A stretch of DNA of 64,000 bases from Rothia nasisuis (GTDB taxonomy: Bacteria; Actinomycetota; Actinomycetes; Actinomycetales; Micrococcaceae): the NCBI RefSeq assembly GCF_928381405.1, contig NZ_CAKMSB010000003.1:124001-188000 (forward strand), in the 5' to 3' direction. Each line of letters starts with the position of its first letter. Within the stretch, counting starts at the first letter, position 1. The position numbers and the translations under genes are program-made. Shown in pieces: positions 3,087 to 63,006 of this stretch. The notes below the pieces were generated by a model. It ran no database searches. It was not told where the DNA came from and saw nothing but the letters and a program-made list of their open reading frames with translations.

Positions 3087-3893
3087 CTAGTAGCCCACAT
3101 CCTGGCTCCACTCACCGCCACCGGCGATGAAGCGGGTAGCCAGCTTCTTCGACTCCAGGGCTAGCAGCTGCACGTCGGCAGCCACCAGAATAAAATCAGC
3201 ACCGGCAGCCAGGTAGTCCTCAGCCTGAGCCGGGTCAAAGGCGTTCACGCCCACCTTCACCCCGGCGGCCCGGGCCACCTCGATCACCCGCTTCACAGCC
3301 TCCACCACCTGCGGGTGATTCTGCTGGCCCAGCAACCCCATAGAGGCCGCCAAATCTGAGGGGCCAACAAAAACCCCAGCCAGGCCGTCCACCGCGCAAA
3401 TCTCTTCAGCATTAGCCACGGCCACCGCAGACTCAATCTGCACAAAAAGCGAAATATACTTCTCAGCCTCGGTCAGGTAGCCGGGCACCCCGCCCCAGCG
3501 GGCTGAGCGGGACAGGGCAGAACCCACCCCGCGCACCCCGGCAGGCGGGTAACGGGTAGCAGCCACGGCGTCCTGCACCATGCCAGCATTATCAACCATG
3601 GGAATGAGCAGGTTCTGGGCACCGGCGTCCAAGAACTGCTTGATAGCAACCACATCCAGGGAGGGCAGGCGCACCACGGTCTGCACCGGGTAGGCGGCCG
3701 CCACCTGCAGAAGCTGCTGCACAGTCTCCAGGCTGACAACCCCGTGCTCACCATCAATCAGCAACCAGTCCAGGCCGGAACCCGCACAAATTTCAGCGGC
3801 CACCGGCGAGCCCGAGCAAACCCACATGCCCACCGCCGGGCGGCCCAGCTCCCGCAAGGTATCGGCAAAGGGAGGCTCTAGACGAAGCGACAC
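3087..3893 (-). CDS. hpaI: 4-hydroxy-2-oxoheptanedioate aldolase HpaI
   Basis: A class II HpcH/HpaI-family aldolase that splits 4-hydroxy-2-oxoheptanedioate into pyruvate and succinate semialdehyde, the last step of the homoprotocatechuate meta-cleavage pathway. Seen motifs are LLIDGEHG (metal and substrate region), VRLPS, YPPAGVRGVG, FVQIES and VFVGPSDLAASMG, all typical of HpaI. I chose the GTG at 3893 (269 residues, the usual length) because GGGGGCGG precedes it and the family-like sequence starts there. A longer frame to 3950 would add 19 non-conserved residues. The start overlaps the end of hpaH by 16 bases, indicating coupling. Other HpcH/HpaI aldolases look alike, but the operon context decides. 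Confidence 0.9.
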   Translation of the reverse strand: MSLRLEPPFADTLRELGRPAVGMWVCSGSPVAAEICAGSGLDWLLIDGEHGVVSLETVQQLLQVAAAYPVQTVVRLPSLDVVAIKQFLDAGAQNLLIPMVDNAGMVQDAVAATRYPPAGVRGVGSALSRSARWGGVPGYLTEAEKYISLFVQIESAVAVANAEEICAVDGLAGVFVGPSDLAASMGLLGQQNHPQVVEAVKRVIEVARAAGVKVGVNAFDPAQAEDYLAAGADFILVAADVQLLALESKKLATRFIAGGGEWSQDVGY

Positions 3894-4663
3894 GTTACCG
3901 CCCCCAAGTCCCCATAATCGGCGTGGACGGTATCGCCCGGGTGAACCCACATGGGCTTGGTGAAAGACCCGGCCAGGATTATCTCACCAGCTTTAAGGGA
4001 GTCCCCGTGGGCAGCCAGCTTCTTGGCCAGCCAGGCAACACCGTTGGCCGGGTGGTTGAGGACGGCGGCAGCCACCCCGGTATCTTCAATCTGCTCATTG
4101 CGGTAGAGCAGGGCTGAGACCCATCGCAGATCAACGGAGGCCGGGTCCACCGGGTTGCCTCCGTAGACCATGGCTCCTAGGGCTGCGTTGTCGCTGATTG
4201 TATCGACGATGGTGCGGCCCTCCATCTCAATGCGAGAGCTGAGAATCTCCAGGGCCGGAACCACATATTCGGTAGCCCGCAAGACGTCGAAGACGGTGAC
4301 GTTGGGGCCGGTCAGGTCGTCTTTGAGCACGAAAGCCAGCTCAACTTCAATACGCACATTGGAGTAGAGCCCGTGCTCGATGACCGAGCCGTTTTCGTAG
4401 ACCTGGTCGGCGAAGATCGCCCCGTAGTCGGGTTCAGTGATGCCGGTGGCCTCTTGCATGACCTTGGAGGTCAGCCCGATTTTACGGCCGATTAGACGGC
4501 GGCCGACGGCCTCACCCCGGGCCCGCCACATGTTCTGTACCGCGTAAGAGTCTTCAACGGTCATGTCGGGGTAGGTGGCGGTCAGGCGCGGAATCATGGT
4601 GCGCTTGGCCTCGGCCTCGGCCAAGTCATCGGCAATTTTGGTGAGCTGTTCTTGAGTGAGCAT
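3878..4663 (-). CDS. hpaH: 2-oxo-hept-4-ene-1,7-dioate hydratase HpaH
   Basis: A 261-residue hydratase of the MhpD/HpaH group within the fumarylacetoacetate hydrolase superfamily. It adds water to 2-oxohept-4-ene-1,7-dioate to give the HpaI substrate. The [11 protein letters not shown] segment, the acidic metal-binding pattern around [10 protein letters not shown] (Glu residues) and PALEIL, and the C-terminal [20 protein letters not shown] match the family. It lies between hpaD and hpaI in one minus-strand operon. A large stem-loop element (4687-4798) fills most of the gap to hpaD and ends 23 bases before this ATG, so expression could be tuned separately. Confidence 0.9.
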
Positions 4664-4686: not shown

Positions 4687-4798
4687 GGTGCTTGAGGGAT
4701 ATGCTCGCCGCCGACTGGCTGGGTCTGGCGTGAATTGGGGCGAGCGCCCCGCGCGAGGCCCAAGAGGGTCAGTCGGCTAGAGCATATCCCGAAGCACC
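4687..4798 (-). repeat. Intercistronic structured element, copy 1 (hpaD-hpaH gap)
   Basis: A long interrupted inverted repeat almost fills the hpaD-hpaH gap. Paired segments are GGTGCTT (4687-4693) with AAGCACC (4792-4798), GGGATATGCTC (4696-4706) with GAGCATATCCC (4780-4790), and GCCGACTG (4710-4717) with CAGTCGGC (4770-4777). An apical GGGGCG/CGCCCC hairpin (4737-4750) lies inside. The core from 4717 (GGCTGGGTCTGGC, then TGAAT, GCGAGCGC, GCGCGAG) recurs at 61471 inside a second element with differently sequenced arms. The strand follows the operon. The function is unknown: intercistronic RNA structure or mobile palindromic repeat. Confidence 0.7.
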
Positions 4799-4818: not shown

Positions 4819-5925
4819 TTACAGCTGGTGGCCCAGCTTGTATTCGCCCTTCTTCCAGTCGGGCATGTCTTCTTCGCCTGCGCGGGTGTAGGAGAAGCCG
4901 TCGGCACCGATGGTTTGTTCCATCTCGGAGTCGTCGGTGCGCTCGGTGAGGGGTACCAGGTTGCCGTCGAGGTCGAGGACGCGGGAGGCGTCGGTGTACC
5001 AGGAGGGTACGACGGGGGTGCCCCACCAGTCGCGGCGCTGGTTGTCGTGGACGTCCCAGGTGACGCGGGGGTTGTCGGGGTCGCCGGTGTAGTAGTCCTG
5101 GGTGTAGATCTCGACGCGGTGGCCGTCGGGGTCGCGCAGGTAGAGGTAGTAGGCGTTGGAGACGCCGTGGCGGCCTGGGCCGCGTTCGATGTGGTCGGAA
5201 AGACGCAGGGCGCCGAGCTTGTCGCAGATGGCAATGATGTTGTGCTTTTCGTGGGTGGCGAAGGCGACGTGGTGCATGCGGGGGCCGTCGCCGCCGGTCA
5301 TAGCGGTGTCGTGGACGGTGGGCTTGCGGCGCATCCAGGCGGCGTAGGAGGTGCCGGCTTCGTCCTGAATGTCTTCGGTGACGCGGAAGCCCAGGTCTTC
5401 CATGTAGCCGATAGCCTTAGGGACGTCGGGGGTGACCTGGTTGAAGTGGTCAAGGCGGACGAGGGCGCCGGGGATGTGAAGTTCGTAGCGCCAGGCCAGG
5501 CGTTCGACGTGCTCTACCTCGTAGAAGAATTCGTAGGGGAAGCCCAGGGGATCAAGCACGCGCACGGAGTCGCCCAGGCCCTTGACGAAGCCGTCCTTCT
5601 TGCGGCGCACCTGGCAGCCGCGGGCGGTGTAGAACTTTTCTGCCCTGTCGAGGTCTTCGGGGGTGCGGACGCGGTAGGAGAAGGCGGCGACGGCGGGGGT
5701 GTCGCCCTTGCGCAGAATCAGGTTGTGGTGGATGAATTCTTCCAGGGAGCGCAGGTAGATGGTGTTGTCGTCTTCTTCGGTGACGACCAGGCCGAGCACG
5801 TCGACGTAGAAGTTGCGGGAGCGTTCGAGGTCGGTGACGACCAGTTCCATAGAGGCGCAGCGGACGATGTCGGGGGCGTTTTCGTCGGGGACGATAACGG
5901 GGTAGTCAACAAAGGTAGGTGACAT
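4819..5925 (-). CDS. hpaD: Homoprotocatechuate 2,3-dioxygenase HpaD
   Basis: A type I extradiol dioxygenase of 368 residues that opens the ring of 3,4-dihydroxyphenylacetate to 5-carboxymethyl-2-hydroxymuconate semialdehyde. Two vicinal-oxygen-chelate modules are visible (about residues 20-140 and 150-290). The metal ligands are His160 (RLDHFN), His219 (MHHVAF) and Glu272 (HRVEIY), each five positions later than the well-studied Brevibacterium enzyme. The C-terminal extension with WDVHDNQRRDWWGTPVVP is characteristic of that subfamily. It is the central gene of the hpa operon, 77 bp downstream of hpaE. Confidence 0.95.
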   Translation of the reverse strand: MSPTFVDYPVIVPDENAPDIVRCASMELVVTDLERSRNFYVDVLGLVVTEEDDNTIYLRSLEEFIHHNLILRKGDTPAVAAFSYRVRTPEDLDRAEKFYTARGCQVRRKKDGFVKGLGDSVRVLDPLGFPYEFFYEVEHVERLAWRYELHIPGALVRLDHFNQVTPDVPKAIGYMEDLGFRVTEDIQDEAGTSYAAWMRRKPTVHDTAMTGGDGPRMHHVAFATHEKHNIIAICDKLGALRLSDHIERGPGRHGVSNAYYLYLRDPDGHRVEIYTQDYYTGDPDNPRVTWDVHDNQRRDWWGTPVVPSWYTDASRVLDLDGNLVPLTERTDDSEMEQTIGADGFSYTRAGEEDMPDWKKGEYKLGHQL

Positions 5926-19245: not shown

Positions 19246-19564
19246 TCATGCCCTCCTCCATAGATAGGGAATACCCATATAAACCTTCCACCGATACTAG
19301 CCCAAGCTCGGGCGTTTCTGTTGAGCACCGGCGTCCCTGCGCACTCAAAAGGCAGGCACCCGCCACCCCACGAGGGTAGCGGGCACCTGCCTCAAGAAAG
19401 CGAACTACCGGGGCTTTACACCCTAGCTCTAGCTTGCTACTTCTATTGAGAAGCTACTTTTAAAGGTTGATTCAAAATGGCCAGGCACCCCAGGCTGACA
19501 GCGAAGCCACTGGGCTACATTGAGCGCAAGCCTGGGAGCCCGGGGCTTTTGAATAAGCCTCTTC
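19246..19564. other. Gap between GH16 gene and MocR gene
   Basis: This 319-bp stretch holds the promoter side of the MocR gene (TTTATATGGG and GTATTCC runs near 19265-19290 on the minus strand, no clear consensus) and the GH16 terminator at 19351-19391. Nothing else was recognised. Confidence 0.5.
19351..19391 (-). terminator. Terminator for the GH16 gene
   Basis: On the minus strand GGCAGGTGCCCGC pairs with GCGGGTGCCTGCC apart from two internal mismatches, and TTTTGAG follows immediately. It lies about 170 bp after the GH16 stop. Confidence 0.65.
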
Positions 19565-60035: not shown

Positions 60036-61412
60036 TTAGCCAGCTACATAGTAGAGGCGTTTGTTGACGAATTCGTCCATGCCGTAGGGGCCGAGCTCCC
60101 TACCGTAGCCGGAGTTCTTGACACCGCCGAAGGGGATTTCAGCGCCTTCACCGGCAGGGGTGTTGACGTTGACCATACCGGCGTCAATCTGCTGGGCCAG
60201 GCGGCGGGCGCGGGCCTCGTCCTGCGAGAAGACAGCCCCACCCAGGCCGTACTGGGTATTGTTGGCCAGGTCAATAGCCTCCTCCTCACTCTCTACCCGA
60301 TAGACGGTGGCCACGGGGCCGAAGAGCTCCTGATAGTAAACCTCAGAGCCAACAGGCACATCAGTGAGGACGGCCGGGGAGAGGTAGGCGCTCTTCTCAT
60401 CCAGCAACTGGCCACCGGCTCGCAGAGTAGCACCGGCAGCTACGGCATCGTCGAGCTGCTTCTTGAGGCCTTCGGCCGCTGAGCGCGAGGAAAGGGCCAT
60501 GTAGGTGGTTTCGTCCGCCTCGGCAGGTTTGCCCGGCTTCATGGCTTCGGCCAGTTTGACCAGCTCAGCCACGAACTCGTCGTAGATATCAGCCATGACG
60601 ATCATGCGCTTGTTGGAGTTACAGGCCTGGCCGGTGTTGTACATACGGAAGCCCCAGGCGGTGGCCGCAGCTTCAGCGACGTTGTCGGTGTCGAGCACGA
60701 TGTAGGGGTCGGAGCCACCCAGTTCCAGCACGGCCTTCTTGAGGTTGCGCCCGGCAATACCGGCCACAATGGCACCGGCGCGTTCGGAGCCGGTCAGGGA
60801 GACACCCTGAATGTGGCGGTGGCCGATCATGGTCTCAATCTGGTCGTGGCTAGCAAAAACTGCCTCATAGGCACCCTCCGGTAGCCCGGCGTCCTTCATA
60901 ATCTCAGCGATGGCGAGCGCGGACTTGGGGCAGATTTCGGCGTGCTTGAGCACAATAGTGTTGCCCAGCATGAGGTTGGGGGCGGCGAAGCGGGCTACCT
61001 GGTAGTAGGGGAAGTTCCAGGGCATGATGCCCAGCAGGGCGCCCAGGGGCTTGCGCTGGATGTAGGCCTCGGAGTTCTCCGCTTCTGAGGGGATCCGCTC
61101 GTCCGCAAGGTGGTCGGCGGCGATCCCGGCGTAGTAGGCGAAGATTGCGGAGGAGAACTCGGCTTCTTCAATGCCCTCCGAGATGGGCTTACCCATTTCC
61201 TGGGAGATGATTTCGGCTAGCTCCTGCTTGCGTTCTTCGAAGAGTTCAGCGATGCGGTTCACGATGGTGGCGCGTTCTTCGACGCTGGTGGTGCGCCAGG
61301 TCAGGTAGGCGGTGTGGGCGCGGTCTACGGCGGCGGTAGCCTGCTCGTCGGTGAGGGTGTCGAAGGTTTCGAGCACCTCGCCGGTGGTGGGGTCTTCAAG
61401 TCGGTAGCTCAT
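60036..61412 (-). CDS. Succinate-semialdehyde dehydrogenase-like aldehyde dehydrogenase (GabD-like)
   Basis: A 458-residue aldehyde dehydrogenase with MPWNFPYYQVARFAAPNL, SLTGSERAGA, the general base in LELGGSDPYI, the catalytic Cys in NTGQACNSNKRM and IPFGGVKNSGYGRELG. The layout (shorter N-terminus, NTGQ motif) matches GabD1/SSADH types. It is the third gene of the gab group and is separated from gabT by the second structured element. It would oxidise succinate semialdehyde to succinate. Confidence 0.8.
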   Translation of the reverse strand: MSYRLEDPTTGEVLETFDTLTDEQATAAVDRAHTAYLTWRTTSVEERATIVNRIAELFEERKQELAEIISQEMGKPISEGIEEAEFSSAIFAYYAGIAADHLADERIPSEAENSEAYIQRKPLGALLGIMPWNFPYYQVARFAAPNLMLGNTIVLKHAEICPKSALAIAEIMKDAGLPEGAYEAVFASHDQIETMIGHRHIQGVSLTGSERAGAIVAGIAGRNLKKAVLELGGSDPYIVLDTDNVAEAAATAWGFRMYNTGQACNSNKRMIVMADIYDEFVAELVKLAEAMKPGKPAEADETTYMALSSRSAAEGLKKQLDDAVAAGATLRAGGQLLDEKSAYLSPAVLTDVPVGSEVYYQELFGPVATVYRVESEEEAIDLANNTQYGLGGAVFSQDEARARRLAQQIDAGMVNVNTPAGEGAEIPFGGVKNSGYGRELGPYGMDEFVNKRLYYVAG

Positions 61413-61441: not shown

Positions 61442-61550
61442 GGGCGGGATGAGCGCCCCGGCAGTCGGCTGGCTGGGTCTGGCATGAATCGAGCGAGCGC
61501 TCTGCGCGAGCTCGAGAAGGTTAGCCGACAGAGGGGCGCTCATCCCGCCC
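61442..61550 (-). repeat. Intercistronic structured element, copy 2 (gabT-dehydrogenase gap)
   Basis: GGGCGGGATGAGCGCCCC (61442-61459) pairs perfectly with GGGGCGCTCATCCCGCCC (61533-61550). An inner pairing is GTCGGCT (61464-61470) with AGCCGAC (61523-61529). The core GGCTGGGTCTGGC, TGAAT, GCGAGCGC and GCGCGAG (61471 onwards) matches the core of copy 1 at 4717, while the arms are different in sequence but still pair. It begins 8 bases from the gabT stop and ends 29 bases before the next start. Confidence 0.7.
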
Positions 61551-61557
61551 CAGGGGT

Positions 61558-62901
61558 TTAGGCTGCGACCTTGCGGATCTCTTCCACGAAAACATCCAGG
61601 GCCTGGCCGAGGAGTTCTTCGGGCATGGTCAGCGGGGGCAGCAGGCGCACGACGTTGCCGTAGGTGCCGCAGGTGAGGATTAGGACGCCGCGTTCGGCGC
61701 AGGCCGCTGCGATATCTTTGGCGGCGGTGGCGTGGGGTTCCTTGGAGTCGGAGTCTGCCACAAATTCGACGGCGAACATGGCGCCGCGTCCGCGAATTTC
61801 ACCCACAATATCCAGCTCATCAACCAGGGGGGCCAGCTTTTCACGGGCCAGTTCTTCAATGCGGGCGGCTCGGGCGTTGAGGTCCCACTCTTCCATGGTT
61901 TCGATGGTGGCGAGGGCTGCGGCGCAGGCGACGGGGTTGCCGCCGTAGGTGCCGCCGAGGCCGCCGGGCTGGACCTTGTCGAAGAGTTCGGCGCGGCCGG
62001 TGACGGCGGAGAGGGGCATGCCGCCGGCGATGCCCTTGGCGGTGGTGATGAGGTCGGGTTCGATGCCTTCGTGGTCGGAGGCGAACCAGGTGCCGGTGCG
62101 GCAGAAGCCTGCCTGAACCTCGTCCGCGATGAAGACGATGCCCTTTTCGCGGGCCCAGGTGACCAGTTCGGGCAGGAAGCCTTCGGCGGGGACGATGAAG
62201 CCGCCTTCACCCTGGATGGGTTCGATGAGGATTGCGGCGACGTATTCCGAGCCAATCTGCTTTTCGATCATGTCGATGACGCGGGCGGCTGCTTCTTTAC
62301 CGCCGGTGTTGCCGTCACGGTAGGGGTAGCTCATGGGGGCGCGGTAGACCTCGGGGGCGAAGGGGCCGAAGCCCTTCTTGTAGGGGGCTGCCTTGGCGGT
62401 CAGGGCCATGGTGAGGTTGGTGCGGCCGTGGTAGGCGTGGTCGAAGACGACGACGGCGTTGCGCCCCGTAGCTGCGCGGGCGATTTTGACGGCGTTTTCT
62501 ACGGCTTCGGCACCGGAGTTGAAGAGCACGGTGCGCTTGTCGAAGTCGCCGGGGGTGAGCTGGTTGAGCTTCTCGGCAACGGCTACGTAGCCCTCGTAGG
62601 GGGTGACCATGAAGCAGGTGTGGGTGAAGTGGGTGGCTGCTTCACGCACGGCTTCTACGACCTTGGGAGCGGAGGCACCTACGGAGGTCACGGCGATACC
62701 GGAGCCCAGGTCGGCGAAGGAGTTGCCGTCAACGTCGACGATGACGCCGCCGTCGGCGTCCGCTGCGTAGAGGGGCAGGGTGGAGGCAACAGAGCCGGGG
62801 ATATTGCTGGCGCGGCGGGCGGCCAGTTCGGCGGATTTGGGGCCGGGAGCGGCACCGGTCAGCTTAATTTCTTGGGGTAGGCGGTAGGTGATATCGGCCA
62901 T
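61558..62901 (-). CDS. gabT: 4-aminobutyrate-2-oxoglutarate aminotransferase GabT
   Basis: A 447-residue class III aminotransferase from the ATG at 62901 (AAGGAA upstream; the longer frame to 62943 lacks a site). The PLP-binding Lys is in DLITTAKGIAGGMPLS, with FIADEVQAGFCRTG before it (Asp) and NSGAEAVENAVKIARAATGR earlier. It converts GABA and 2-oxoglutarate to succinate semialdehyde and glutamate. It is between two aldehyde dehydrogenase genes on the same strand. Confidence 0.9.
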   Translation of the reverse strand: MADITYRLPQEIKLTGAAPGPKSAELAARRASNIPGSVASTLPLYAADADGGVIVDVDGNSFADLGSGIAVTSVGASAPKVVEAVREAATHFTHTCFMVTPYEGYVAVAEKLNQLTPGDFDKRTVLFNSGAEAVENAVKIARAATGRNAVVVFDHAYHGRTNLTMALTAKAAPYKKGFGPFAPEVYRAPMSYPYRDGNTGGKEAAARVIDMIEKQIGSEYVAAILIEPIQGEGGFIVPAEGFLPELVTWAREKGIVFIADEVQAGFCRTGTWFASDHEGIEPDLITTAKGIAGGMPLSAVTGRAELFDKVQPGGLGGTYGGNPVACAAALATIETMEEWDLNARAARIEELAREKLAPLVDELDIVGEIRGRGAMFAVEFVADSDSKEPHATAAKDIAAACAERGVLILTCGTYGNVVRLLPPLTMPEELLGQALDVFVEEIRKVAA

Positions 62902-63006
62902 AAGTTCAAGTTCCTTGAGTGGTGGGTTTTTGTAACTACACAAAGTTGGGGTGTGGGCGCCCGCCCGAACCGGGTGCCGGGGCGGGCACCCGCCGGGGTT
63001 GGGGCC

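Follow-up and report, generated by a model that had tools for sequence, protein, structure and literature searches.

REP and BIME sequences are small palindromic repeats that occur in dozens of copies, mostly after the ends of genes and in both orientations, and a REP carries a 5' tetranucleotide of the GTAG or GGAG type beside its conserved stem. REP palindromes and RAYT transposases are treated together in a published account (PMC2817692). Here we consider two structured elements in a window of 64,000 nucleotides (the whole stretch of DNA analysed) from Rothia nasisuis, which are copies of one repeat family with a core shared beyond chance. The copies of this family are dispersed, are present or absent between relatives, hold a covarying structure that folds best on one strand, flip their cores, and lie after gene ends; probably, we think, they form a mobile palindromic repeat whose members act as, or are tolerated as, 3'-end hairpins indifferent to orientation.

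The window copies and their family

Structured inverted repeats at 4687..4798 and 61442-61550 had been proposed in an earlier note on the window, and direct reading confirms both (Table 1). The core that they were said to share is real: the pattern CTGGCT(N)GGGNCTGGCNTGAAT has exactly two matches in the window, against 0 of 100 dinucleotide shuffles. The covariance model behind the scores of Table 1 was built from 13 training sequences, both window copies among them, and its next match in the window reaches 12.4 bits. As all four flanking genes lie on the minus strand, the core of each copy runs antisense to transcription, which agrees with the like orientation described before, as does their closeness to stop and start: by the reading frames, copy 1 begins 20 nt after a stop and ends 23 nt before a start, and copy 2 lies 7 and 29 nt away respectively. 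What the first reading missed were 26 further copies in the genome and a degenerate relative within the window, in which the left end has decayed and the right end, CTTTTGAATAAGCCTC, is intact.

Table 1. Features of the two window copies, their flanking genes and a degenerate relative
Feature	Position	Strand	Remarks
Copy 1, left outer arm P1	4687..4706	+	site-specific sequence; fold pairs it with 4780-4798
Copy 1, core and inner stem P2	4710..4777	+	P2 4710-4720/4767-4777; covariance model 76.8 bits
Copy 1, core content			one-sided conserved loop GGGTCTGGCGTGAA; apical stem with YGAGC/GCGAR motif
Copy 1, right outer arm P1'	4780..4798	+	direct reading and fold
Copy 2, left outer arm P1	61442..61459	+	fold pairs it with 61533-61550
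Copy 2, core	61464..61529	+	P2 61464-61474, P2' 61519-61529; covariance model 78.8 bits
Copy 2, right outer arm P1'	61533..61550	+	direct reading and fold
hpaH, downstream of copy 1	3878..4663	-	NCBIfam TIGR02312 above cut-off
hpaD, upstream of copy 1	4819..5925	-	NCBIfam TIGR02295 above cut-off
Succinate-semialdehyde-type dehydrogenase, downstream of copy 2	60036..61412	-	best NCBIfam NF006915, below cut-off
gabT (GABA transaminase), upstream of copy 2	61558..62943	-	NCBIfam TIGR00700 above cut-off
Degenerate, almost core-less relative of the terminal-repeat subfamily	~19463..19561	+	limits by eye

The covariance-model search for further copies, suggested at the outset, was productive: 13 blastn matches in the R. 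nasisuis genome itself (G000) became 28 copies with the model of the core, and 20 of 35 Rothia genomes carry between 1 and 73 copies each, where no more than 147 candidates were scored in any genome. The family appears to be confined to this genus, as a family-level search with stricter filters found matches in 10 of 245 genomes, Rothia in every case, and a pattern scan of named genomes returned at least 114 stretches, 113 of which are titled Rothia among the matches listed (R. nasimurium, R. amarae, R. aerolata, R. endophytica, R. terrae, Ca. R. avicola and other Rothia). One listed match in a 'Mycobacterium' MAG (L175) fell inside a predicted gene, was treated as chance and was removed from later counts; viral contigs gave no matches. 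We found no description of the repeat in the open PMC literature, a body that leaves out most subscription papers, and no Rfam match in the window, at copy 1 up to E 10, or in 20 loci. Seven further loci gave only a SAM-IV riboswitch (L385 2138-2253, minus strand) and an Actino-pnp RNA (L205 1123-1191, minus strand), which lie near family members, away from the element, and are not part of it.

The family also takes more elaborate forms. Cores occur in tandem, two or three together and 61-65 nt apart (L129 1130-1276, L122 3727-3809), and larger multi-hairpin forms with 177-265 nt between the inner arms were seen at L385, L018, L373, L350, L147 and L470; several of their hairpins repeat the YGAGC...GCGAR tip motif, and these forms too are without an Rfam match.

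Paired arms around a conserved core

In its minimal form of about 110 nt, the element runs from P1 through a linker of about 4/3 nt into P2 (11 bp), a conserved loop on one side, GGGNCTGGCRTGAA, the short apical stem P3 and a tip whose motif, read by eye, is YGAGC/GCGAR. One step of the analysis dropped 18 of 178 elements that resisted parsing. Pairing in P1 holds at about 90% over 15 positions and drops at 16-20, and it is this fall-off that we use, in place of the raw pairing length (median 26, range 2-44). In a type I alignment of 32 sequences, made up of 31 of the 33 type I copies (L167 and L395 were left out) and window copy 2, standard pairs fill 85.7% of pair cells compared with 67.7% (sd 0.9) in shuffles. 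Covariation stands at 0.515 against 0.200 in shuffles and is equalled by none of 500, on a structure that was derived from the same sequences and with two orthologs, L112 and window copy 2, among them. In P1, all 18 pairs vary on both sides, with three to six standard pair types each; P2 is largely conserved (99.4% paired), with a G-U at column 31 and a U-G at column 33 in 32 of 32 copies, while column 30 holds either G-U or G-C. The compensating changes claimed for the arms around a conserved core are upheld, and the wobble pairs fixed in P2 mean that one particular strand folds best.

Arms of the same copy belong together and arms of different copies do not, with a median pairing score of 19 within a copy and 5 for swapped arms. 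Between orthologs, 64 arm pairs have changed on both sides yet still pair, where about 14 would be expected if the sides changed independently, in a count limited to ortholog pairs of which each member matched the search pattern. Divergence within sites amounts to 21/662 positions in the head, 8/275 in the tail, 55/766 in the apical part, 130/1150 in P1 and 155/1240 outside, figures that lean low, considering that one copy had to match the pattern and that heads with more than nine changes were excluded. That the core head diverges less could mean a function in place, and is itself affected by how the copies were found. Two other estimates were discarded: an 'almost frozen' head between orthologs (18/687), where the requirement that each of the two copies match the pattern had introduced a bias, and a head divergence of 44/679, in which flipped cores were mixed in.

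How could arms be specific to each site and still complement each other? One answer would be that they arise when the element inserts, through fold-back copying of the DNA alongside, as in snap-back synthesis primed by the core hairpin, which would account for the self-complementarity just described and for two suggestive single cases (L007/L208 and L190/L135). However, the longest match between arm and flank has a mean of 6.30 nt, compared with 6.00 in controls, and inverted repeats at the junctions are not enriched (4.33 vs 4.52), so that we hold this origin to be highly improbable.

Covariation among copies is normally read as strong evidence that an RNA has a function, and the first reading of the window had indeed favoured an RNA structure selected to act in cis, in regulation or processing, within catabolic operons. 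The covariation is real, the wobble pairs are invariant on one strand, and on that core strand isolated arm mismatches are more often G-T than A-C (44 vs 23, p 0.014). On the strand that is actually transcribed at co-directional sites, however, there is no G-U preference (21 GT vs 19 AC), which speaks against selection on the RNA.

Presence, orientation and position relative to genes

Both window sites are polymorphic, and both are empty in some close relatives, which again argues against an RNA selected in place. Across 11 genomes, the hpa gap holds the same copy in five, other copies in two and no core in one, and in three the genes stand only some 9 nt apart; in G007, this gap contains two copies, one with arms resembling those of the hpa copy. 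The gab gap, likewise across 11 genomes, holds the same copy in six (two of these with an altered head), other copies in three and none in two. Elsewhere, a gene in G000 read as aspC (L013, C11) is without the stop of its relatives, so that its frame enters the element and the protein gains a C-terminal tail, and in the S2 gap beside mnmA (L312, G004) tandem GGGTTTGGGCGGT units adjoin the element and vary in copy number between genomes.

The core is also found inverted between similar arms, in four ortholog pairs by a strict rule and at six sites by a looser one, under which 31 sites have an ortholog in the same orientation; the clearest flip is L025/L038, with near-identical flanks. A larger count (114 flipped, 424 same) was not used, as it mixed different elements in one gap. 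Flipping in sister genomes argues against a strand-dependent role, as does orientation itself: at 41 distinct co-directional sites the core is sense 14 times and antisense 27 times, another count gives 14 sense and 30 antisense (p 0.02), and it is antisense at both window copies. The proposed tie to catabolic operons is not supported either, considering that many kinds of genes neighbour the copies, among them rne/rplU, leuA/recO, glyS, mnmA and aspC (read from translations). What survives of the RNA reading is therefore the structure, the core, the covarying arms and the many copies, and not a selected RNA acting between catabolic genes, which we now regard as quite unlikely; the palindromic mobile repeat, named from the start as the alternative, fits better. 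Such a repeat had been expected to show neither covariation nor strand preference, and the family answers to this in part only, with strong covariation. Nor does our preferred reading absorb everything: the antisense excess and the core-strand G-T bias both count against it.

The position of the copies points to the ends of genes. With gene contexts taken from a simple codon-usage gene finder written for this analysis, and with terminal-repeat copies excluded from distinct-site counts, the distinct sites fall into 41 co-directional, 27 convergent, three divergent and two unclear, while coreless gaps of at least 60 nt number 213, 56 and 102 for the first three types, orthologs not being collapsed among them; gap types differ between core-bearing and coreless gaps at p 1.5e-7 (Fisher, with a slightly different grouping). 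Divergent gaps are avoided by the copies. There is no replication-strand bias in three genomes (G005 21:26, G028 22:21, G003 14:12), of which the first two have records starting at dnaA, as read, and the third does not.

Gaps without a core have a native candidate for this position: of the coreless gaps, 36 of 44 convergent, 32 of 180 co-directional and two of 79 divergent ones contain a stem of at least 12 bp. Once the element is masked, a second stem of this length is present in four of 26 core-bearing convergent gaps (p 5e-8) and in two of 41 co-directional ones, against the 32 of 180 (p 0.05), in a comparison that is not length-matched; there is little room for a second stem, as a median of 45 nt is left after masking in the convergent gaps. 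In convergent gaps, moreover, the nearest stop is about 40 nt away from the edge of the core, as it is from the tip of the native hairpin. Since long second stems are rare where a core is present, the element stands in the niche of a terminator. Against a terminator role, a T-run does not clearly follow P1, with T at 16-34% over the first five positions on the core strand compared with 35-43% after native stems, and a second measurement agrees, though many stems were trimmed too early in it.

Perhaps, then, the core inserts into the loop of a native bidirectional terminator hairpin, whose stem would supply the outer arms. This would fit the drop in P1 pairing beyond position 15, with native convergent stems at a median of 16 bp, the shared distance from the nearest stop, and the co-directional, convergent and divergent counts of 41/27/3, which by eye are closer to those of native stems (32/36/2) than to those of the gaps. 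It would also fit site S6, where two genomes have an uninterrupted stem and two others a core between copies of that stem. Against it, coreless orthologs carry a stem of at least 12 bp at only four of nine convergent sites (of which two belong to a single gap) and one of 13 co-directional sites, and sequence is shared at S6 alone; the S6 case and the empty allele of S3 are equally explained as deletions between short repeats. With one in 13, there is no sign of replacement in gaps of the window type. We consider this origin rather doubtful, and neither host flanks nor native terminators are clearly supported as the source of the arms.

Mobility and comparison with known systems

A subset of the family looks mobile. 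Terminal repeats like GAGGCTTATTCA(A/T)AAG are found on ten of the copies listed (one of them on a single side only), and by eye five of these ten are flanked by 3-bp duplications (TAT, TAT, ACA, ATT and AAG). The same ends, 902-905 bp apart, flank a 257-codon gene with DDE_Tnp_4 and HTH_Tnp_4 domains; IS copies with GAGGCTTATTCA ends lie at L382 (G000:C5:106600-108000) and L383. With at most one mismatch, such IS-type ends number 106 in G000, 20 in G005 and 10 in G028, alongside 28, 47 and 43 cores respectively, so that copy number does not track the ends; perhaps there was a burst of IS in G000.

Two observations count against mobility. The window copies have no terminal repeats and no clear target duplication, and arms are not common to different sites, where plain whole-element transposition would predict that they be shared. 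As for the enzyme responsible, three candidates were set aside: a Y1 transposase (three of 35 genus genomes and three of 20 carriers; absent from G000, G003, G005, G028 and G030), a reverse transcriptase (four of 35 and two of 20) and IS110 (five of 35 and four of 20, with IS110 fragments present in G000). As each of these is absent from most carriers, the mover of the copies without terminal repeats would lie outside the enzymes tested.

We nonetheless favour a mobile palindromic repeat, in which copies would spread as non-autonomous elements, a subset of them presumably moved by an IS5-type transposase acting on the terminal inverted repeats. Once placed, the long hairpin may serve as, or be tolerated as, a 3'-end or terminator-type hairpin in either orientation, a role suggested by its occupying the spot that is taken in comparable gaps by a native stem resembling a terminator. 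For the hpa and gab copies, the best explanation is that they are accessory insertions with which close relatives dispense, and not dedicated regulatory RNAs. We could go further and imagine a new kind of mobile hairpin, whose core folds as one strand and at insertion comes to lie between arms that are new, site-specific and complementary, each about 18 bp long. The pairing of these arms would survive repeated inversion of the core, more hairpins would be nested at the tip, and the element would occupy the position of a terminator; as a whole, this is a speculative and unlikely proposal.

The implications are several. Covariation is met here in a polymorphic, flipping repeat, which therefore offers a test case of selection on RNA against the dynamics of palindromes; should the copies end transcripts, they would give this lineage a means of its own to add terminators to gene junctions and to remove them; and the origin of site-specific yet paired arms is a concrete, testable puzzle.

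Where does the Rothia repeat stand among known systems? It resembles an intrinsic (Rho-independent) terminator in being a long GC-rich hairpin at gene 3' ends, and usually the sole long stem of its convergent gap, but it carries a large conserved core in its loop and is without a clear T-run. Covarying helices and an invariant loop and wobble positions recall the structured RNAs of Rfam, in which it has no match, and its orientation to genes is not fixed. A likeness to IS5-type MITEs is seen in the subset that has terminal inverted repeats, in some cases 3-bp duplications, and an IS to match; IS ends are absent, however, from the window copies and from most others, and copy numbers do not follow those of the ends. 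There are also the REP and BIME sequences, which the repeat resembles in being small, palindromic and dispersed in non-coding gaps, mostly after gene ends and in both orientations, and from which it differs in outer arms that share no sequence between sites and in the rarity of the Y1 (RAYT) transposase in the genus and its absence from the R. nasisuis genome. With no RAYT partner found, and with window copies that are not demonstrable MITEs, our best reading is that the Rothia repeat is a kind of small mobile palindromic repeat.
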